DNA of 11,192 bases from Firmicutes bacterium CAG:631. Lineage in GTDB: Bacteria; Bacillota_I; Bacilli_A; RFN20; CAG-631. Shown here piece by piece: positions 1 through 11,192 of this stretch; the first letter of the stretch is position 1; the number at the start of each line of letters is the position of its first letter. Location: assembly GCA_000433015.1 (NCBI GenBank), contig HF998023.1:111413-122604 (forward strand), in the 5' to 3' direction. The position numbers and the translations under genes are program-made. Below the pieces are notes generated by a model. That model made no database searches. It worked only from the letters and a program-made list of their open reading frames with translations, and was not told the origin of the DNA.

Positions 1-1098
1 GTTTTTATTTCCATATGGTAATATTCTAAAATTATTTCTAAACAATTTAACACCATTTATTTGTTCAAGAATATCCCTATCTTCTTTACTAAATCTATTA
101 GGTGTTTTGTCAAACGCAAAATATCTTCCTTCAAAATTTCCTGGTAGATACAATAGGCCAAGTGAATCTTTAATAAGTATGTTATTATGTATTTTGGGAT
201 AACTTCTTGATATATTTTCTAAGTCAATTTCATAAGTTTGAGCTAAATTATTGTATCTTGCATCTTTATCTAATTCAATAAAATCAAAGTCCATTTTTTC
301 ATATCTTTTTCTAGCTTCATTAATTCTATAATCTGCATATTTTCTTTTTCTATTAACGTTAATCAAAAGTTTTTTTGTTAAAGAATCAAACTTGAAATCA
401 ACAATAGAATCTGCCAAACTTTCTATTAATTTTACATCATATTTATCAGAAACAAATCTAAATTCATCTAAATTAAAAAATATCGAAAATTTACTTTCAT
501 CATTTGCATATGGATTAATCATAGAAATTATTTCGCTTTTAAACTTTGCAAATGTATCTTTGTTTCTCCACAATTCTATATTTTTTAATCCAAAAATTTC
601 CATTTTTGTACCAGTAGAATTCAAACTATATCGATAATTTTCTATGACATTTATTTTGATTTCTTGAATGTCTACATCTTCACTAAATTTTTTCCAGTCA
701 ATCTCTAAAAAGTGTTCGCTTACCCCATCATTAGTGGTTATTTTAACAAAACTTCCAAGACGTTGAAGAGATAATCTTCCTACGCCCTTGTTTCCTAATG
801 ACATTCGGTTAAATTTTGGTGATATTTTTTGCTTTTTTAACTTATAATCTGTCGCAAGTTTTAAAAAAGAATTTTCAATTATATTCAAACTCATACCATT
901 TCCATCATCCAGTATCTCGATTTTACCCTGACCATTTTCATCATTGTAATATGTATCTATATTGATAATTGCTTTATTAGCATCTGCATCGTATGAGTTC
1001 TTTATTAATTCCAATAATGCAACTAATTCATCAGAAATTAAAGCTTCGCCAAGATGGTTCATTAATCTAGCCGAAATTTTAAAGGAAAAATTATGCAT
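1..1098 (-). CDS. GHKL (MutL/MORC/Hsp90-like) ATPase, C-terminus beyond window
   Basis: An open frame of 366 codons runs from ATG at 1098 off the left edge without a stop. All three GHKL ATP-binding motifs are visible: the N box ELIKNSYDADA (about residues 30-40, with Glu30, Asn34 and Asp37), DDGNGM (64-69), and the lid LGNKGVGRLS (101-110). A later segment near the left edge, GVKLFRNNFRILPYG, resembles a motif I associate with bacterial MORC/MutL-like ATPases. The start is set by AAGGAGG (1107-1113) eight bases upstream. It overlaps the upstream methyltransferase stop by 8 nt, so the two are translationally coupled. Family knowledge: such ATPases are nucleotide-gated dimerisation clamps, and paired with a DNA methyltransferase they occur in MutL-homologue restriction-modification operons. 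No transmembrane or histidine-kinase DHp region is seen, which argues against a sensor kinase. The C-terminal half is not visible, so any nuclease domain is unknown. Confidence 0.88.
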   Translation of the reverse strand, partial: MHNFSFKISARLMNHLGEALISDELVALLELIKNSYDADANKAIINIDTYYNDENGQGKIEILDDGNGMSLNIIENSFLKLATDYKLKKQKISPKFNRMSLGNKGVGRLSLQRLGSFVKITTNDGVSEHFLEIDWKKFSEDVDIQEIKINVIENYRYSLNSTGTKMEIFGLKNIELWRNKDTFAKFKSEIISMINPYANDESKFSIFFNLDEFRFVSDKYDVKLIESLADSIVDFKFDSLTKKLLINVNRKRKYADYRINEARKRYEKMDFDFIELDKDARYNNLAQTYEIDLENISRSYPKIHNNILIKDSLGLLYLPGNFEGRYFAFDKTPNRFSKEDRDILEQINGVKLFRNNFRILPYGNKN

Positions 1099-2353
1099 TG
1101 ATTATTCCTCCTTCTTTTTTATAAATTAATATATATTCTTCAGACATTGATTCAACAGAAGTAGAATTAACTTTAGATATTTTTTTTGCGATTCTTTTAT
1201 TTAATATATCTCTTCTTTTTTCTATTATCTTAACAAATCCAAATAATTTTGCCAATTCATCATTTACTTTAACAAAAGGAAATAATTTATTATCTACTTT
1301 TCTATTACCAACAGTTAATATCATAAATCCACCTTTTTTTATTTTTGTAGATAACTTTGAAAAGATATCAACATAATCTGTAACAAAATTGATTACTTTT
1401 TGTTTTTTTGATTTAGATAAACTATCTATGTATGAACTAGCACACTTCAAATTTAAGATCGAATTTCTTTTCTTTCCACCCAAACTAAGATTATCTATTG
1501 ATGAATAATTATAATCAACTTTGTCTACAGAACTATCTAAATCTTCCCTTAAAATCCATCTTAATGCCAAACTAGAAAATTGGCCATATGTTACAGTTGT
1601 TGAATTATCACCATAAGGTGGAGAAGTGCAAATAATATCAATAGAATTTTCATCTATTATATCCAATAAGTTCAGAGAATCTCCACAATAGAGATTTGTT
1701 GTTATATTGTTATCCGTTGAATAAGAAATTTTTTGTAAAGCATTTTCTATTTCTTTTTTAAAATCATCAACAACTTTATTTTCCATTGAATCTATTTTAG
1801 ATTGTTCCTTAATATGTAATTTGAAAGTTGATGAACGTGAATTAGAATATTTTCTCACAATATTTGAAAAAATTGTCCAAAATAACAATCTATTTTTTTT
1901 GTTTTCTATTTTTATTATCGACATTCTAACTTTTGACAAACTTTTTATTATATCTTTTCTAAACCATTTTTCTATTTTTTCGAATGAGTGATTTTCATAT
2001 TCAATATCTGAATCTAATATAGCAAATAATTTGTTTTTATCTTCAAATACACTATTATCATAGTTATAAAGTTTAGTTTTTGCTATCAAATTTGCAAGAG
2101 GATTAATATCAAATCCTATTTGATGTAATCCTAATTCTTTGGCAATAAGTAACGACGTTCCTGCGCCATGGAAAGGATCTAACAATACTAGGTTTTCTTT
2201 TTTATCATATATTTTTAATACTTCCTCTAAAATACATTTTTGCATTTCATCTATCATCATCGCAGGATATAAAGCGATACTATTTAAGCCATTATTTTTA
2301 TAATTTTTAAAAGTTAAAAATTCATGAGTAAACTTATTAAATGTACTTTCCAT
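1091..2353 (-). CDS. Site-specific DNA methyltransferase (amino-MTase, N4-cytosine or N6-adenine)
   Basis: A complete 420-residue protein that should transfer a methyl group from S-adenosylmethionine to an exocyclic base amine in DNA. The AdoMet site (motif I) is DPFHGAGTSLL at residues 59-69, followed by an acidic strand, IGFDINP (79-85). The catalytic loop (motif IV) is TSPPYGDN at 243-250. The TSPPY form is commonest in N4-cytosine enzymes but does not exclude N6-adenine. A motif VI-like strand, GGFMILTVGN (341-350), follows. Motif I lies N-terminal to motif IV with about 175 residues between, which may hold target-recognition sequence. ATG at 2353 is preceded by AAAGGAGA (2361-2368) and by a good promoter. 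The stop overlaps the GHKL ATPase start by 8 nt, so one operon is likely. No restriction endonuclease is visible on this side; if present it lies left of base 1. The gene is intact and all three Trp codons I located are TGG. Confidence 0.93.
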   Translation of the reverse strand: MESTFNKFTHEFLTFKNYKNNGLNSIALYPAMMIDEMQKCILEEVLKIYDKKENLVLLDPFHGAGTSLLIAKELGLHQIGFDINPLANLIAKTKLYNYDNSVFEDKNKLFAILDSDIEYENHSFEKIEKWFRKDIIKSLSKVRMSIIKIENKKNRLLFWTIFSNIVRKYSNSRSSTFKLHIKEQSKIDSMENKVVDDFKKEIENALQKISYSTDNNITTNLYCGDSLNLLDIIDENSIDIICTSPPYGDNSTTVTYGQFSSLALRWILREDLDSSVDKVDYNYSSIDNLSLGGKKRNSILNLKCASSYIDSLSKSKKQKVINFVTDYVDIFSKLSTKIKKGGFMILTVGNRKVDNKLFPFVKVNDELAKLFGFVKIIEKRRDILNKRIAKKISKVNSTSVESMSEEYILIYKKEGGIINA

Positions 2354-2382
2354 TTTAATATCTCCTTTCGATGATTTTATTA

Positions 2383-2608: not shown

Positions 2609-4483
2609 TTAAATTTTTCCCTTTTTCAACATTATTTTAATATAATTTGCTAATGGTTTATCTTCACAATAAATATAACAGCCTTTTTGCCCTCTTGTTA
2701 ATAAGGTTTTATAGGTATTTTTAATCAATTGTTTTGCTAATCCTTCCCCACAAGATCGGATACCTGATGATTTGTCATCTTTAGAAATTTGAGTTTTATC
2801 TATAATAATTTCATGATTTTTTTCATCATATCTTAAATCTTTTCCAATAAATACACCTACATAATCAAATTCTAAACCTTGGGCTGTATGAATACAACCC
2901 ACCTCTTCAAAAGAAGAAGGATTAATTGCCCAAATTTTATCATTTTCTAAATTCCATTTTGCTTTAAAACCATTTTCAAGGTAAATATCATAATCTCCTC
3001 TATGATTTTTTACATTCCAATCATAACAATAACCAGCAACCATTCGTGCTTTGTTGTTTTTTTCATTTTTCTTTCGAAGTTCATTTCTTAATTCATTGGG
3101 ATCATCAAAAATTTTGATGTCAAAATGAAGGCCTGAGACATCAATATCTACCGGTTCGCCAATTTGTAAAAGATTATTTAAAAATTGAATATATAAATCA
3201 CTTCCGTTACATCTAAATTGAGAAGTGAGTGTTGTTTCTTCATTTAAAATGACTCTACTATTGAATATTTTTGCCCAATGTTGAATTTCATCAATTGAAC
3301 CAATATCTTTAGTTGTTATTTTTTGATTTTCATCAATTAAAAAAATTGTCAATAAAGAAGCATTAATGCACTCCATCACTTGATTTTGTCCTTTAAAATC
3401 GCCATACATTTGTTTTACTAATCGATGGGCTTCATCAACAATTAAGCAGTCATAAAAATTACTAGGAACTTTACATAATCCAAATGGAGAGCGGAATAAT
3501 TGTTTAATATTGACTTCTTTTTTTAAATCAGATTGGCTTAGTAATTTTAAATAAGCTTCTCTAGGTGCACTATTTTTGGTAACATAACTTGCATTTAGAC
3601 CTTTAGAAATATACGATTTTAATAAATTAATCGCTAAGACAGATTTACCTGTTCCAGGGCCTCCTTGAATAATGATCGTTCTTTTCTTTAAGTCTTTAAG
3701 ACACTGTTTCATTGTTTTAATACACATATCATAAACGACGGCTTGTTCATCTAAAAGCATGAATTCTTTATTTCCTTTCATTAAAGAAACTAAACAATCT
3801 TGCAAAGCTTTCGAAGGCCGTATTCTTCCATTATCAATTTTATATAATAAATCTCCATCATTTGATTTTTTAGTGATATATTTTTTGATAAAATTTCTTA
3901 AATCTACAACTTGATTTTTGATGAAAAAAGGAGCTTCTTCATACCAAGTTTTATAAATTTCATCATTTAATTGGTTGACATATTTTTCTTCGTAATTATG
4001 TAAATAGGCACAGGGAATGATTTGGATATTTTCATCTTGAACTTGTTCACTAGAATTTCTAATAAAAACAGCATAAGAATAGGCTTGATAAGAAGGATGA
4101 GAAACAATTCTATTAGCTCCTCCTGTGAATGCTTTTACACTATGTAGCATTTCGTCGGCAACTTTTTCTACTTTATCCCATTGTTTTAATTCAACAATGA
4201 TAATATTATTTTTATCATGATTGTCTGCACCAGCAATAATAAAGTCTACTCTTTTAGAAGTTCTAGGAATTTGATATTCAATAGCGACTTCAATTTGGCC
4301 ATCAAAATCCTTATCATTTAAAACATTATTCATAAAGTTTAATGAATTTTGCCATGCATGATATTCTGCTAATGCGCCACCATGAATATTTGCTTCTTGT
4401 AATTTTTTAAGAATTTTATTTGAAATCTGATTCATCATCACATCATTGTTAAATTCTTCTTTGGTAGCACTATAAACAATCAT
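2609..4483 (-). CDS. PD-(D/E)XK nuclease + DUF2075-type SF1 helicase fusion
   Basis: A complete 624-residue protein with a nuclease-like front and a helicase body. Residues about 78-83 (RVDFII) and 97-102 (VELKQW) give the D...ExK pattern of PD-(D/E)XK nucleases. The helicase follows: Walker A QGGPGTGKS (273-281), Walker B VDEAH (349-353), a sensor-like LIDENQKIT, then TAQGLEFDYVGV and TLLTRGQKGCYIY near the C-terminus, the layout of DUF2075 (COG3410) proteins. A frame-compatible GTG lies at 4495, but it sits inside the likely Shine-Dalgarno AGGTGA, so the ATG at 4483 is preferred. It has its own extended -10 promoter, so it is a single-gene unit divergent from the HEPN gene. Family knowledge: stand-alone nuclease-helicases of this type include at least one reported anti-phage enzyme (Nhi of staphylococci), so a defence role on nucleic acid is plausible. 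That role, and the substrate, are inferred. Confidence 0.9.
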   Translation of the reverse strand: MIVYSATKEEFNNDVMMNQISNKILKKLQEANIHGGALAEYHAWQNSLNFMNNVLNDKDFDGQIEVAIEYQIPRTSKRVDFIIAGADNHDKNNIIIVELKQWDKVEKVADEMLHSVKAFTGGANRIVSHPSYQAYSYAVFIRNSSEQVQDENIQIIPCAYLHNYEEKYVNQLNDEIYKTWYEEAPFFIKNQVVDLRNFIKKYITKKSNDGDLLYKIDNGRIRPSKALQDCLVSLMKGNKEFMLLDEQAVVYDMCIKTMKQCLKDLKKRTIIIQGGPGTGKSVLAINLLKSYISKGLNASYVTKNSAPREAYLKLLSQSDLKKEVNIKQLFRSPFGLCKVPSNFYDCLIVDEAHRLVKQMYGDFKGQNQVMECINASLLTIFLIDENQKITTKDIGSIDEIQHWAKIFNSRVILNEETTLTSQFRCNGSDLYIQFLNNLLQIGEPVDIDVSGLHFDIKIFDDPNELRNELRKKNEKNNKARMVAGYCYDWNVKNHRGDYDIYLENGFKAKWNLENDKIWAINPSSFEEVGCIHTAQGLEFDYVGVFIGKDLRYDEKNHEIIIDKTQISKDDKSSGIRSCGEGLAKQLIKNTYKTLLTRGQKGCYIYCEDKPLANYIKIMLKKGKI

Positions 4484-4527
4484 TTTTTCTTTCACCTACT
4501 TCTAATTAGTTTCATATAATCATTATA

Positions 4528-4682: not shown

Positions 4683-5891
4683 ATGAAAAAATATATTGAA
4701 CACGATATAAAAATAAAATATTATGACGGAATATTTGACCGCTCTAAAAAATGGCAATGGTTTATAGACTCAATTGAACAAAATTTTTATTTTGATGAAA
4801 AAGATATAAAAAATTGGAATGAATATAATTGTAAATATAGTAATCTAGTGGAATTATATGAATGTCTTGTTAAAATCCATGAGTTGTGGAAGGTAAAATT
4901 AAAAATAAAAAAAACATGGTTGAAAAAATTAAATTTTATTGCACTACTATATAATAAAAAGAAATCTATAAAAGAAATTTGAAATCAATTAGATGATAAT
5001 TTTTTTAAATCATTTGCGTTAAATATTTTTATTACAACTTTGCTAAATAATGTTAATGAACAAAAATATTATTATTTAACATATATCTTTACTCAAAATA
5101 ATATATTTGATTTATTTGATATAACAGAAGTTGTTCTCGTTGAATCAGAAATCTTAAAATACTTAAAAGATATAAAAATTGAAGAAAATGTTAAATTAAA
5201 AAGGACTTTTTTAAATAATATACATCAAAATACAATTCCTTATAGTAAAACTCTATTTAAAAAAAATTCTAAACTTATTTCATCTTCAAATACTTTTGAA
5301 TTTCGAAATATAAAAATAGATAGGCAAATATCATGGCAAGAACAATATTTTTATGATATGTTAAGCATTAAAATTGAAAATAAAAAATTGGTTCACTTTT
5401 ATAATTTTTATGGAAGATGTTATCCTGATTTCACACAATGGGATTTATGTAAACTACAAAATATGAAGTCTTTTTTTAATAATTCACATGCTAATTTTAT
5501 AATTGAAACAATAGAATATATTTTACATGGGAAAACTCCATCTGAGCAAACAATAAACAAACATTTTGAGTTTGAAATAAAACATTTCTCTAAATTAAAA
5601 AGTAAATCAACATTTTATGAAATAAATGCTTCTTCTTTTAAAGTTATAACCTATTTAATTAAAGATAATCTTCTATCAAAAAAAAATCAAAGACAAGCAT
5701 CTTCAGTTAAAAACATTAGAAATATAAATGATTTTAAAAATTATTGCACGAATCAATATATTGCCAAAGTAATTAAAGATAAACATATTCAGTAGTTACA
5801 TAAAAATTTTATTAATCTCATTAATGATAATAATGATCTTATCATCGCGATAGCTTTTAATCATTATATGATTTTACTACTGTTGAGTGAG
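4683..5891 (+). pseudogene. HEPN-family (DUF4209-like) protein, 5' half, interrupted
   Basis: Starts at ATG 4683 with a good Shine-Dalgarno and stays in one frame to 5891 (403 codons) except for two in-frame nonsense codons: TGA at 4980-4982 (KSIKEI*NQLDD) and TAG at 5793-5795 (KDKHIQ*LHKN). The frame remains open and protein-like between and after them, until AT-rich coding sequence meets GC-richer element DNA. The TGA lies where Trp fits well; the other Trp codons in this segment are TGG, so a TGG-to-TGA mutation is likelier than recoding. The product is Lys/Asn/Phe-rich and probably helical, with no signal peptide or recognised catalytic motif. I assign it to the same gene as 8014-8957 because the right part lacks its own start, and joining Glu (5889-5891) to Asp (8014-8016) keeps frame. 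The N-terminal family was not recognised by itself. The summed length of about 717 residues is, as I recall, in the range of DUF4209 proteins. Confidence 0.65.
5872..5886 (+). repeat. 15-bp imperfect direct repeat, left copy (possible att-like site)
   Basis: TTTTACTACTGTTGA here matches TTTTACTACTTTTGA at 7886-7900 at 14 of 15 positions. This copy lies at the very end of the HEPN left half and the other just past the integrase relic stop. Tyrosine-recombinase elements often leave short direct repeats at their ends, so this may be an attachment core. Alternatively it is an integrase-arm-like sequence or coincidence. Confidence 0.4.
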
Positions 5892-6142: not shown

Positions 6143-6198
6143 AGCGGGAGAGTCACCCTCAGTCCAAACCGAAGGTGGCGCTCCCGCTTCTTTTGTTT
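6143..6198 (+). terminator. Large hairpin with T-rich tail, rho-independent terminator candidate
   Basis: AGCGGGAG (6143-6150) pairs perfectly with CTCCCGCT (6181-6188). An inner stem, GTCACC with GGTGGC, extends the hairpin, and TCTTTTGTTT follows. The T-tract is on the plus strand, so it would stop transcription entering from the left (HEPN gene reading rightwards) before it runs antisense into the protease. On the minus strand it sits immediately after the protease stop and could also act as a weaker 3' end for that gene. Confidence 0.6.
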
Positions 6199-7090
6199 AA
6201 GAATTATATCTTATACCGTTTTTAATAATTTGTGGAATCAAATAAGAATACCACACATTACCTAATCCATAAGAATTTCCCATTTTATATTTTTTCCCAG
6301 CAATTACGACATCTTCATACCACTTAAATTCGCCAGAATATACACCGAGAAAAACAAATTGTTTGGTTTTACTATATTTTAGGTTAAAATCTATCATCGC
6401 AATATTTGTTGGTTTGCTTATAACTAAACCGCCGGATGAACCAGGAAAAAGCTGGGCATCAATTTGGAAAATTGGTAGACCATTGAAGTTAGAACCCCAA
6501 GCAGATGCAACTATACCAGACTTTACAATAGGAAATTTATTGATTTTATCGTAGAAGCCTTTGGGATAACTTGCAACAATAATATCACTGGTAACATCTA
6601 TCGTGATTGGTTGGTTCTCAGGCAAATTTATGTTGGATAATGTTGTTGGAATCATCAAATTATTTGTTGTTTTTTTTGAAGCGATGTTATCTATGATATT
6701 TTGAATGTAAGGAGTTATATCAATCAGAGCAACATCTATTTCGGTTTGAGGATGGAGTCTCAACTTCGATAACAGTTCTTTTTTGGATAAAGTGATAGGT
6801 TCCCAAAGTATAGTATCCCCATCCTGTTTTCTAAGGCAGAAAATGAATTTTTCAGGAATGCACTCAATATTGCCAATTTTAGGAAGCACAACATGTCTGT
6901 TGGTAACAAGCCAGTACTTTTCTAAAGAATAAAATTGAGGACCACTTTTTGTTGGATCTGCCGGACTCATCTCGGTATAATAGAATCCTGATCCTTGAAA
7001 AATGTAAGTTTCTCCATCATTTATTACAGTGGTTTCTGTAATCGTTGTAATGGCAAATAGTTGATGCTCAAAACAATTTTTGCTATTCAT
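6197..7090 (-). CDS. Trypsin-like serine protease (S1-type fold), element cargo
   Basis: A complete 297-residue protein starting at ATG 7090. An earlier in-frame ATG at 7126 would add 12 residues, but GAGAGGAG eight bases before 7090 decides the shorter start. The charge-relay triad is visible in family order: His66 in VTNRHVV, Asp119 in TEIDVALIDI and Ser219 in LFPGSSGGLV. A conserved FQGSGFYY near the start also fits. There is no signal peptide or transmembrane segment, so it should act in the cytoplasm. Family knowledge: cytoplasmic trypsin-like domains occur as peptidase effectors or stand-alone proteins in bacterial defence and conflict systems. Here it is the only cargo between the element end and the integrase relic, is AT-rich like the chromosome rather than GC-richer like the element, and is intact with its own promoter. 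No sensor domain (STAND, repeats) is fused, so its target and trigger cannot be told. Confidence 0.88.
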   Translation of the reverse strand: MNSKNCFEHQLFAITTITETTVINDGETYIFQGSGFYYTEMSPADPTKSGPQFYSLEKYWLVTNRHVVLPKIGNIECIPEKFIFCLRKQDGDTILWEPITLSKKELLSKLRLHPQTEIDVALIDITPYIQNIIDNIASKKTTNNLMIPTTLSNINLPENQPITIDVTSDIIVASYPKGFYDKINKFPIVKSGIVASAWGSNFNGLPIFQIDAQLFPGSSGGLVISKPTNIAMIDFNLKYSKTKQFVFLGVYSGEFKWYEDVVIAGKKYKMGNSYGLGNVWYSYLIPQIIKNGIRYNS

Positions 7091-7134
7091 GTAATCGGCT
7101 CCTCTCTCATTGATATTTATATTCATTTTCTTTA

Positions 7135-7163
7135 ATTATATCAGAAATACATGGCAGTGTCAT
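7135..7163 (-). promoter_or_regulatory. Near-consensus promoter for the protease gene
   Basis: Minus-strand ATGACA (7163-7158), a 17-base spacer and TATAAT (7140-7135) with extended TGA before it. This is 11 of 12 consensus bases, and transcription would start about 38 bases before the ATG at 7090. It abuts the eroded start of the integrase relic, so promoter and gene form one inserted cargo unit. Confidence 0.72.
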
Positions 7164-7174
7164 GAATAACATAA

Positions 7175-7860
7175 TTGATTTTACGAGAGCGCATCTTAGG
7201 AGGCAAAGGCGCAAACCTTGCGGAAAGACTCAATTCGTGTATGCCTGGAAACTGGTCCTCACCGACAAGCCCCCCTGTGGGCAATCGGGATGACATCTCG
7301 CTCCGTGAGAAGGTCAAGGAGATTCTGCGAGACATAAATGATGGGATCGACACCATCGGCAAGAAGATGACGGTCTGACAGTTCTATGCCCGACAGAACA
7401 GCCATCGAAAGAATGTCAAGCGTAGCACCGAGAAGGGTCGGGAATACCTGATGTCTGTTTTGAAAAGCGACCCCCTGGGCTCTCGAAGCATTGACACGGT
7501 GAAGTTCTCGGACGCCAAGGAATGAGCCATCAGGATGAGCGAGAAGAGCTACGCCTACAAGACCATCAACAACTGGAAACGATCTTTGAAAGCGGCCTTC
7601 CTAAAACGGCGTCCTGCTACGGAGCATGTTCCAGGGGCTTGTCAGGAAGTACAACAAACACCACAAGTCTGATGAGGCCCTGCCGAACATCACGCCCATA
7701 CCATGCGGCACACTTTCTGCACTCGGCTTGCCTAGGTTGGAATGAACCCTAAAGATCTGCAATACATCATGGGACATTCCAACATTATCATACGCTGAAC
7801 TATTACGCTCATGCGGATTACGCCTTTGCAAAGGCGGCGATGGGCAGGCTGGCGGCTTAG
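7175..7860 (+). pseudogene. int: Decayed Tn916-type tyrosine recombinase (integrase)
   Basis: Pieces of a Tn916 Int-like protein appear in order but in several frames. They are KTQFVYAWKLVLTDKP (from 7225); after one extra C in the run near 7270-7275, ISLREKVKEILRDINDGID; after a TGA (7376-7378), QFYARQN through SIDTVKFSDAKE; and after a second TGA (7523-7525) in a Trp position, AIRMSEKSYAYKTINNWK. About 175 codons of the catalytic core are then missing. The C-terminus resumes near 7626 with MFQGLVRKYNK, shifts frame to HTMRHTFCTRLA, has a TAG (7733-7735), continues MNPKDLQYIMGHSN, and shifts again to LNYYAHADYAFAKAAMGRL before TAG 7858-7860. The His-x-x-Arg and the Tyr of the active site survive in the wrong frames, while the first catalytic Arg region is deleted. 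It is certainly inactive. Its GC-richer composition shows origin from a higher-GC relative. Confidence 0.88.
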
Positions 7861-7889
7861 TAGAAAGGCCGGTTTTCTACTACGTTTTT
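7858..7889 (+). terminator. Rho-independent terminator after integrase relic
   Basis: TAGTAGAAA (7858-7866) pairs perfectly with TTTCTACTA (7874-7882), with a short GC-rich loop, followed by CGTTTTT. The stem begins within the integrase stop codon. Confidence 0.65.
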
Positions 7890-7900
7890 ACTACTTTTGA
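7886..7900 (+). repeat. 15-bp imperfect direct repeat, right copy
   Basis: TTTTACTACTTTTGA overlaps the T-tract of the integrase terminator and matches the left copy at 5872-5886 except at one base. The distance between copies, 2014 bases, is close to but not the same as the inferred element length. Confidence 0.4.
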
Positions 7901-7956
7901 CTGCTAAATGAGAACCAGATATGCTATGATATGCGGGGGGTATCTTTCGAAACGCA

Positions 7957-8014
7957 AAATGTCGAAAATGCTTGATATGGCAAGCAATTCCGACATTTGC
8001 AAAGTGGTGCCAAG
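7957..8014. repeat. Right end of element: AAATGTCG inverted pair and terminal repeat
   Basis: AAATGTCGAAA (7957-7967) faces CGACATTT (7991-7998) across about 23 bases, forming an inverted pair. The outer arm continues to GTGCCAAG (8007-8014), the complement of the left-end CTTGACAC with one mismatch. Beyond 8014 the sequence turns AT-rich and coding, which is why I place the right boundary here. Confidence 0.5.
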
Positions 8015-8957
8015 ATAATCAGAAAATCGATAAAACTTTAAGTACAAAAAATATTAATCTAGAAAACATAATGATTTCTCTAAAAGAAATGTGGACAAAT
8101 ACATATTATGACAAGAGTATAAATTCTCTACAATCATATGAATTTTGTCAGATTATTAAAAATGAAGAGATTAAAGAATATAACAATCTTTTTATAACTT
8201 CACCATTAACAATTGCAATAAATTGTTTTCCTACTAATGAAAATTTACTAATTGATATGATGTCTTCCATATCAAAAAATGTTTTTTCTATTCATGCATC
8301 TAATTATAACATTTCGCAAAATTATCCCTCGTTAATATCATATGAAAATTTTGCAGAAGACCACGAAATAGGGAAATGCTTTTAAAATAAAATAGAAGAC
8401 ATAGTAACAAGAAAGGCTATAAATTCCTTAATGTTTTTGATAAACACATTTATGCAAAAGAAATTCTTGATCAATATAATTTTAAAACAAGTTTATACGT
8501 TAGTCTCTTTAATAATTGGTTAGAATTGTATACTGATATAAAAGAAAACCTGCCAGAGTTCAACTTGTTAGACATAAATGACAATAAAGTTTTACTAGGA
8601 CATGTTACACAATTGTTTCCAATATTAGAAATAAAAATTAGAAAATTAGGTTCATATTTTGGCATAGCACATTTTAAAGAAAATGAACAAGAATTTTTAC
8701 AATCTAAAGATCCTAGTAATGTTTTAATCAAACTTATATTGCAATACTATGAGGGCACATCAGAATTTATAGGTGTAGGCGATTTGTTTTTTGTTTATTA
8801 TACTTTATACAATAGCAATTCATTAAATATAAGAAATGAATGTGTGCATGGAAACAATTATCAGTTAGACAACAATTTACTATATGCATATAAAATAACA
8901 TTACTTTGTTTTAAATTAATATTAAATAGAATTCAAAAAATTGAGGAACATATATAA
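8014..8957 (+). pseudogene. HEPN-family (DUF4209-like) protein, 3' half, with stop and frameshift
   Basis: Coding runs from DNQKIDKTLST to EIGKCF, hits TAA at 8383-8385, continues open as NKIEDIVTRK, then shifts by one base (best placed in the A/G run near 8411-8415) to GYKFLNVFDKHIYAKEILDQ and on to TAA at 8957. The C-terminal part is DUF4209-like: LFPILEIKIRKLGSYFG, then FVYYTLYNSNSLNIRNECVHG. RNECVH (Arg codon 8832-8834, His codon 8847-8849) is the Rx4H motif of HEPN ribonucleases. In this fold the motif forms a metal-independent RNase site used in abortive infection and toxin systems. The element supplies only a TTG (7972) without Shine-Dalgarno, so no independent start is credible, supporting a split gene. 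The active-site region itself is undamaged and the breaks all lie upstream. The family call is from memory of the C-terminal pattern. Confidence 0.68.
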
Positions 8958-9434: not shown

Positions 9435-10076
9435 TTAATCTTTGAAATATTTATTATAAATTTCATTTATAATCTCTGCTCTTAAAGAACGTGATTTTTT
9501 ATTTGGGTCATCATTATTGTTTTTCTTTTTTAAATAACCATTTAGCACTTCGTTCCAACATCCATTATTTTTTAAGGCCTCTATTTTTTTAGAAAGATCA
9601 TAATATCTTTTAGGTTGATATTCCCAAGAATAGTAATTTTGCTCCTTGTTAAACCTAATGTATTGTTCTGAGCCATCATTGTTCTTGTAAACTATTGCAA
9701 AATCACAACTATGTAAAATTCTCGAATTTTCTTTATCTTTTACTTTTATTGTGAAAACTCTAGTGCTATCCTCGCAGTTACTATAACTATAATTGTGCTG
9801 TCTTAGAACTTTATTAAACGCGTTCATTAAGATATGTTTAATTGTTTTGGCGTCATATTTTTCTTCTTCATCATTAACTTGAATATCCACATCAAAGTCA
9901 TACCCAATATTGGATGAAAAATCACATGTAACCATATTTAAAGTATCGCTTCCAACAAAATCGAACCTAAAAGTAAAATCATCTCTTATTTCATCTTGGA
10001 CTAAATTAATTATTTTTATCAACTCTTTTTTTGTTTCTTTTCTTTGATTTTTAGAAACATATTCAAAATGATACAT
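9435..10076 (-). CDS. Nucleotidyltransferase-fold protein (pol-beta superfamily, stand-alone)
   Basis: A complete 213-residue protein starting at ATG 10076, with GGAGGTG seven bases upstream. The pattern fits the nucleotidyltransferase catalytic site: FVGSDTLN (about 40-47) supplies the Gly-Ser turn, YDFDVDI (59-65) the paired acidic residues, and SCDFAIVY (123-130) the third Asp on a following strand. Such enzymes transfer nucleotides to proteins, RNA or small molecules, or make signal nucleotides. The short length, with no C-terminal helical domain typical of full CD-NTases, argues for a minimal transferase. The Lys/Asn-rich C-terminus (KKKNNNDDPNKKSRSLRAEI) is basic and could bind nucleic acid. 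It lies between a broken DUF2971 gene and a decayed membrane frame on the same strand, with gaps of about 150 bases. The exact family is not recognised and toxin, modifying or signalling roles remain open. Confidence 0.6.
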   Translation of the reverse strand: MYHFEYVSKNQRKETKKELIKIINLVQDEIRDDFTFRFDFVGSDTLNMVTCDFSSNIGYDFDVDIQVNDEEEKYDAKTIKHILMNAFNKVLRQHNYSYSNCEDSTRVFTIKVKDKENSRILHSCDFAIVYKNNDGSEQYIRFNKEQNYYSWEYQPKRYYDLSKKIEALKNNGCWNEVLNGYLKKKNNNDDPNKKSRSLRAEIINEIYNKYFKD

Positions 10077-10227: not shown

Positions 10228-11192
10228 TTAATTTCCTATAAAAATTCTATAATTCAATTTATCATATTCATCTATATAGCATTCTAAAATATTTTCTATT
10301 CCGGCGGACTTAGCAACAGTGTAAACTAAATTTTTATCATCTTTAGACATATTTAAGCCTAATATAATACCCCATGGCCTCCATTTAATTGATATCGGTT
10401 TGTTATACCAGATTGGAGATCATTCGCCATTCTTGATCATACATATGACATTTCTTCTTTATTAAAGTAATTTTTTCTTTTTCCCATGACATTTTAGGAA
10501 ATAATTTAAAAATCTTATCATCTACTATATCATTTTTTGAAACATACTCTTTTAGGACGACAAAAGTTGTAAACCATTTTGCATATTCTGTGGCATCATA
10601 TGATTTGTTCGAATAATAAACAGGGTATAGTGGATGAGAAAAATGATTAAATGAACAATTATTGAATTTTTCTTCTTTTCCACATAAATAATTTTCTTTA
10701 TTTTCTAAATCATATATAAGTGCAAATCCTTTATGTTGATTTGCATATTTTATCCACAAGGTTTCATTTAATCCATTTTCAGAAAAACAAGCAGATAAAG
10801 TATAGCTTCTCAATATATTTCTAATATCGCCCCTAATCAAAGAGATGATTTGGGAATGAAAACTTTTTATATCAAAAGAATTGATTTTTTTAGAAATTTC
10901 ATTTTTATTAAATTCCATACCTAATTGCTTACATATGAATTCAAGATTTGAAAGAAAATTTTCTTGTTTAAAAATATCATCTATACTTTCAAACAACTTC
11001 TTTTGATTTATTTTTAAAAAAGTATCAAATGGGTCATCATAGTAATTTGAAGTTGAAAATTTTAATTTATTATTTTTTATATCTGCAAGACTATCAATTG
11101 TTAAACTTTTATACCTAAATAGATATTTAGGATATTTAATTATGTTTTCTGAAAGATTTTCATTATCTTTTAAAGAACACAATGTATCCCCA
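10228..11192 (-). pseudogene. DUF2971 protein, frameshifted near its C-terminus; start at or beyond window edge
   Basis: The main frame (11182 to 10403, 259 codons) reads KYLFRYKSLT, then YYDDPFDTFL, CFSENGLNETLWIKYANQHK, GFALIYD and finally DQEWRMISNLV before TAA (10405-10403). These are the landmark segments of DUF2971 in order. The normal C-terminus is present in the adjacent frame: NKPISIKWRPWGIILGL, then SKDDKNLVYTVAKSAGIENI to TAA at 10230-10228. Removing one base near 10406-10409 fuses the frames to a protein of about 318 residues with the expected IxxGxxxS-like end. TTG at 11182 is the first possible start, but the frame stays open to the window edge, so the true start may lie outside. 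DUF2971 proteins have no established biochemical function and are common near defence and mobile genes. The shift is either a real mutation or an assembly indel; the domain core is otherwise intact. Confidence 0.75.

Follow-up and report, generated by a model that had tools for sequence, protein, structure and literature searches.

A DNA methyltransferase-GHKL ATPase gene pair of Firmicutes bacterium CAG:631 and a candidate phosphorelay defence cassette in its relatives

The gene pair in the window

The window analysed here is a stretch of 11,192 nucleotides from Firmicutes bacterium CAG:631 (contig HF998023.1, positions 111,413 to 122,604) whose left end carries, both on the minus strand, a DNA methyltransferase gene and, downstream of it, a gene for a GHKL ATPase; window genes are numbered by their positions within this stretch. 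We propose that the pair corresponds to genes one and two of a compact, mobile set of three genes seen in relatives, encoding a methyltransferase, a MORC-kinase fusion and a receiver protein with an output domain, which would work as a phosphorelay defence. At a probability of about 0.45, this reading stays a little under even odds.

The methyltransferase gene (1091..2353, minus strand) encodes 420 amino acids and is assigned by Pfam and PADLOC to the N4-cytosine or N6-adenine (N4/N6) class. Its match to N6_N4_Mtase (PF01555) lies well beyond chance (E 4.1e-10; 40.4 bits, cut-off 26.7) and the PADLOC model MTase_II (PDLC03322) covers residues 12-414 with an E-value of 4.1e-58. A motif search located DPFHGAGTSLL from residue 59 (2147..2179) and TSPPYGDN from residue 243 (1604..1627), which we take to be methyltransferase motif I, involved in binding S-adenosylmethionine (AdoMet), and the catalytic motif IV, respectively. 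With PF01555 above its cut-off and both motifs in place, the protein is predicted to be a type II amino-methyltransferase. Before its start codon, a Shine-Dalgarno-like AAAGGAGA (2361..2368, minus strand) was recognized by eye as a good ribosome-binding site.

The GHKL ATPase gene (1..1098, minus strand) is an open reading frame (ORF) that runs off the sequence at base 1, leaving the N-terminal 366 amino acids visible. According to the ORF coordinates it overlaps the methyltransferase gene by exactly 8 nt (1091..1098), through which the two genes may be translationally coupled. Pfam matched HATPase_c_3 well beyond chance (E 5.7e-18; 65.7 bits, cut-off 25), and motif search and alignment placed the N box ELIKNSYDADAN at residues 30-41 (976..1011), the G1 box DDGNGM at residues 64-69 (892..909) and the G2 box GNKGVGR at residues 102-108 (775..795). 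The key residues of all three boxes, including E30, K33, N34, D37, A38 and D39 of the N box, are invariant in an alignment of 19 rows (A3), each of which has HATPase_c_3 at its N-terminus. An earlier note on this DNA had described the methyltransferase with its two motifs, the 8-nt overlap and complete N, G1 and G2 boxes, all of which were recovered here; the one good promoter it had placed before the pair was not, since the 2200-2700 region holds five promoter-like sites, both strands counted, against 5.9 +/- 2.4 in shuffled sequences, which is no excess.

The same note had assigned the pair to a MutL-homologue or Mza-like defence operon. The methyltransferase-GHKL pairing holds, but the identity of the ATPase does not: the MzaB model NF041932 scores 13.8 bits against a cut-off of 850, which is far off even for a partial protein, and the MutL model TIGR00585 gives 24.9 against 180 with that same partial protein. 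What is shared with the Mza system is the GHKL superfamily ATPase. A motif search of the window protein for the MORC-specific GhXhhpXXRhl motif was empty. Based on the curated cut-offs, the partner searches in relatives and this missing motif, Mza, MutL and MORC proper were dismissed. Its N, G1 and G2 boxes, together with an S5-like region inferred from the alignment and not from a fold, and the missing MORC motif make the protein a putative paraMORC ATPase. The BbrUII/HgiDII restriction enzymes (NF050001) have a related N-terminal GHKL domain; their model reaches 84.7 bits (cut-off 550) over residues 4-174 and model positions 1-170 of 659, and both this match and the PADLOC REase_II match are confined to that domain. 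This reading was not retained, given that the complete relatives have a kinase core at their C-terminal end, as the full-length protein described below does with its second HATPase_c.

Kinase core, receiver and gene order in relatives

Among some 5.8 billion proteins searched, 3954 were candidates and 73 of these proved to be relatives of the GHKL protein. The best of these (P0001), a partial protein of 621 amino acids from an Anaeroplasmataceae metagenome-assembled genome (MAG), is 70% identical over 100% of the query, and its sequence matched MORC3 at E 0.003 and MutL at E 0.038 in the PDB. In species genomes, 111 loci encoding such a protein were detected; all locus counts below rest on the best 80 of these 111, which comprise 18 loci of an N4/N6 group and 62 others. 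The methyltransferase-GHKL pair recurs in a Mollicutes MAG (L005) and in Anaeroplasma bactoclasticum (L006), the latter encoding a full-length protein (9001-11334, 777 amino acids) with HATPase_c_3 and a C-terminal HATPase_c. Upstream of the second HATPase_c, which retains N, G1 and G2 boxes of its own in the alignment, a DHp-like helix carries a nearly invariant His-Glu pair (H568 and E569 in L006). The H-box pattern was found in 18/18 loci of the N4/N6 group and the C-terminal G1 and G2 boxes in 17/18, L005 ending at its contig end. Because the second HATPase_c, the DHp-like His-Glu and the boxes are conserved, the relatives' protein is, as judged from sequence, a paraMORC-type ATPase fused to a histidine-kinase core. 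At E <= 0.1 just 4 of the 19 rows matched the Pfam model HEF_HK (PF19191), with 0.0017 as the best value, the window row being without that region. Given the identity of about 70% and the identical gene order, the window gene very likely continues in the same way for about 410 amino acids, with a coiled coil, a DHp-like helix carrying His-Glu and a second HATPase_c.

To place the window among these loci, a tree was built from the first 430 kinase residues of 80 rows: the window plus 79 loci, all of the 80 except L080, whose sequence was too short. Group membership had been set before the tree was built, from the methyltransferase class and the protein length, neither of which is in the tree columns. 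A branch with 100/99 support separates the 19 N4/N6-linked rows from the others, and the window groups with L005 and L006 (100/100), its nearest kin being Mycoplasmatota. Long branches meet at the N4/N6 split, as the program warned, and its exact shape is therefore less sure than the support values. The methyltransferase gene lies directly upstream in 16 of the 18 N4/N6-group loci and after the receiver gene in two, both from Paenibacillus. At the other 62 loci a C5 methyltransferase is the preceding ORF in 37 and present anywhere in the fetched locus in 52; at 57 of them an ORF on the same strand follows within 60 nt. The identical 8-nt overlap is found in 5 of the 18 group relatives (L006, L014, L018, L022, L044) versus 2 of the 62 other loci. 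The N4/N6 group extends over Mycoplasmatota, Bacillota, Bacteroidota, Pseudomonadota and Thermodesulfobacteriota as well as viral contigs, and we regard it as a separate, compact version of the MORC-kinase element. One locus of Candidatus Spongiihabitans (L066, 7721-11902) is placed outside the group but next to it, on a long branch, and encodes an N4/N6-type methyltransferase, a GHKL protein of 680 amino acids and a next gene of 284 amino acids; it is possibly an intermediate between the two groups.

The third gene of the set follows the kinase gene as an ORF in 17 of the 18 N4/N6-group loci, and a structure model of one of the encoded proteins shows a receiver fold. The nearest relative does not confirm this gene, since its product gave no match in the genome of L005 (G002), where the contig ends inside the kinase gene. 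Intact receivers measure 574-643 amino acids in the N4/N6 group versus mostly 411-502 at the other loci; in A. bactoclasticum the gene is split. Response_reg_2 (PF19192) was matched by none of the 17 N4/N6-group receiver-like proteins at E <= 0.1 (two, L006 and L019, being partial), and this Pfam test alone cannot separate the two groups because the three C5-group receivers scanned (L023, L034, L038) are unmatched too. Across the N4/N6 group the Asp, Asp and Lys of the receiver and the His-Glu of the DHp-like helix are conserved together, which points to real phosphotransfer. The architecture of the cassette in relatives is well supported.

The C-terminal output domain probably adopts a MazF-like SH3-barrel fold, as predicted for one N4/N6-group member. 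Sequence comparison did not identify the domain: among the Pfam matches of the 17 receiver proteins PF02452 (MazF/PemK) is absent and no useful output-domain family appeared, an hhalign comparison of the domain from 14 family members with PF02452 reached E 0.44, PADLOC matched none of four receiver proteins (L008, L010, L030, L034), and the PDB searched by sequence returned just a weak receiver match (E 0.43). Foldseek found no match at E <= 0.001 in the PDB and BFVD; for the whole protein RssB, a response regulator, came out best (E 2.3e-3), and the viral-structure list included two PemK-like proteins (E 1.0 and 1.4) amid unrelated rows. Between the whole receivers of the N4/N6 and C5 groups, hmmsearch gave no match in either direction and hhalign weak ones (E 0.0046 with probability 7.6 for the whole protein, E 0.0087 with 4.6 for the C-terminal part). 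On our reading of the alignments, a G..[FY].....CD....R pattern and, near the C-terminus, an SR are retained in both groups, and a common origin is plausible.

A possible phosphorelay defence and its alternatives

From these parts we infer the following working of the cassette. The N4/N6 methyltransferase would mark self DNA, and the MORC ATPase, in the position of a sensor domain, would clamp DNA that lacks methylation or is otherwise marked as foreign. ATP-driven changes in the dimer would then let the C-terminal kinase phosphorylate its own His, from where the phosphate would move to the receiver Asp. The output domain, once released, could act on RNA or DNA and bring about an abortive or restrictive defence. 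Instead of the helicase and nuclease operon suggested earlier, the cassette may therefore represent an alarm-type defence. Its most specific version, in which the MORC ATPase serves a cytoplasmic histidine kinase as sensor of DNA modification or topology, the regulator's output is a MazF-fold toxin, and foreign DNA is met with a nuclease or growth arrest triggered by the kinase and not solely with a restriction endonuclease, is speculative and on balance unlikely.

The closest described elements are the HEF_HK/Response_reg_2 pairs of Bellieny-Rabelo et al. 2021 (PMC8011034), which likewise have an N-terminal HATPase_c_3, a DHp-like domain, a C-terminal HATPase_c, an adjacent receiver gene and an upstream DNA methyltransferase, with no transmembrane regions reported in the accessible text. 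Those elements mostly carry C5-cytosine methyltransferases, whereas the window group is of the N4/N6 type and its kinases form a separate branch; the legend of Fig. 5 names N6/N4-Mtase among the neighbours, so that some such linkage had already been seen. Our C5-linked loci share the layout of these elements and are likened to them by layout, not protein by protein. The accessible text describes no output domain, in contrast to the probable MazF-type fold in one N4/N6-group member. Among the open-licence papers listed in our literature searches, surveyed by titles and abstract starts, such a cassette appeared in PMC8011034 and in no other, and a MazF-type output domain for it in none; the accessible part of a BREX paper (PMC12839542) has nothing on MORC-kinase fusions.

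More distant parallels concern single components. The paraMORC and MORC families in restriction-modification (R-M) operons (Iyer et al. 2008, PMC2292703) share the GHKL and S5 ATPase and methyltransferase neighbours, but their extensions, as far as the consulted sections go, are nuclease, TIR or unknown domains and not a histidine kinase as in the N4/N6 relatives. The Shedu-type protein VcSduA/paraMORC3 (PMC12137116) requires its N-terminal GHKL ATPase for anti-phage defence, which an ATP-site mutant loses; it differs in being a single protein with a PD-(D/E)xK nuclease (DUF4263), and the sections consulted describe no methyltransferase or receiver partner. In CapK-CapS and VapK-VapS-VapC (PMC13373217) a GHKL kinase responds to single-stranded DNA, as shown for CapK and suggested for VapK, and phosphorylates a partner controlling immunity or a toxin: CapK controls immune expression, and its relative VapK is linked to a toxin. 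These systems use Ser phosphorylation of a STAS domain and have no MORC domain, a word that does not occur in the paper, and the portion at hand mentions no receiver or methyltransferase. Little is understood about the MORC relatives of bacteria, and the input, output and function of the histidine-kinase fusions were left open in 2021 (PMC8011034, as far as available). The candidate output fold in the N4/N6 group makes MORC sensing of DNA modification, a phosphorelay and a toxin or nuclease output testable. The group is also of interest for the question of how the MORC ATPases of eukaryotes, linked to such proteins by Iyer et al. 2008 (PMC2292703, in the part consulted), came to respond to methylated DNA.

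Less favoured, yet a serious possibility, is that the kinase-receiver pair has no effector of its own and regulates the expression or activity of a neighbouring conventional R-M system, as Bellieny-Rabelo et al. 2021 speculate for their elements, around whose receivers they report R-M enrichment (PMC8011034, accessible text). Endonuclease-like genes close to 6 of the 18 cassettes speak for this view. They comprise LlaJI (2.3e-32) together with an AAA_5 ATPase downstream of the A. bactoclasticum cassette (L166, 6127-9084, minus strand), HaeIII near L008 and a homologue of it near L009, an NgoFVII-like domain near L007 (21.1 bits, below the cut-off of 23.8) and HNH near L011 and L012. On the downstream side, 730 bp separate the split receiver gene from the AAA_5 ATPase, which is read as McrB-like. 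Against such regulation, the three core genes are constant but their neighbours change between loci, and no helix-turn-helix was found in any of the 17 receiver proteins. In a scan of 23 flanking ORFs at 11 of the 18 N4/N6-group loci, which is not exhaustive, those of L016 (3), L018 (3), L030 (1), L043 (2) and L044 (1) showed no endonuclease domain. Two further neighbours were observed: in Pedobacter nototheniae (L012, 5317-7454) an FRG-domain protein and the HNH endonuclease, the latter on the other strand, lie directly upstream of the cassette, and at L014 an RNase_H_2-type protein lies two genes downstream.

We consider it improbable that the protein serves a restriction system as an ATP-dependent DNA-looping component of the kind meant by Iyer et al. 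2008, its C-terminal HATPase being a second ATPase or a dimer clamp instead of a phosphodonor kinase. The R-M linkage and the MORC/MutL-like N-terminal domain, seen in the PDB matches of P0001, would fit such a role, but the joint conservation of the DHp-like His-Glu and the receiver Asp, Asp and Lys across the group argues for phosphotransfer.

Remaining genes of the window

Apart from the pair, the window has the look of a low-G+C defence island, in which a G+C-rich stretch contains the remnant of a mobile element: G+C is 44-49% at 7001-8000 versus about 18-30% over most of the remaining window, and degenerate tyrosine integrase-like pieces, HTMRHTFCTRLA and GMNPKDLQYIMGHS, were read from a plus-strand frame at about 7180-7960. 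A long plus-strand frame of about 370 codons (4683-5795), without a convincing family match in Pfam, PADLOC or the curated models, has a single in-frame TGA at 4980-4982 and may be a broken gene or two genes. These broken-looking genes, and the split receiver gene of A. bactoclasticum, would suit a window copy that is a broken, inactive remnant within a decaying island, which is nevertheless very unlikely, as both frames of the pair are intact over their visible part and retain every motif.

Next to the pair, the minus-strand gene at 2609-4495 encodes a Schlafen-group-3 helicase (PF09848 1.3e-93; PADLOC PDC-S41 1.1e-19), probably a separate defence gene, whose N-terminal stretch resembles a PD-(D/E)XK nuclease by eye. 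Further on lie a trypsin-like protease (6197-7126, minus strand; Trypsin_2 1.8e-08, PADLOC candidate PDC-S45 3.3e-31) and a plus-strand ORF (8526-8957) with, by eye, a HEPN-like RNECVHG motif near its C-terminus (DUF4209 just E 0.071); the ORF upstream of it in another frame (7972-8385) is possibly related. A small protein resembling a minimal nucleotidyltransferase (9435-10076, minus strand) shows GSD and D-x-D by eye, with MTPAP-like at just E 0.11. The right end (10403-11191, minus strand) encodes a DUF2971-like protein (E 0.016, below cut-off) that matches the PADLOC candidate PDC-S31 with an E-value of 6.4e-16.
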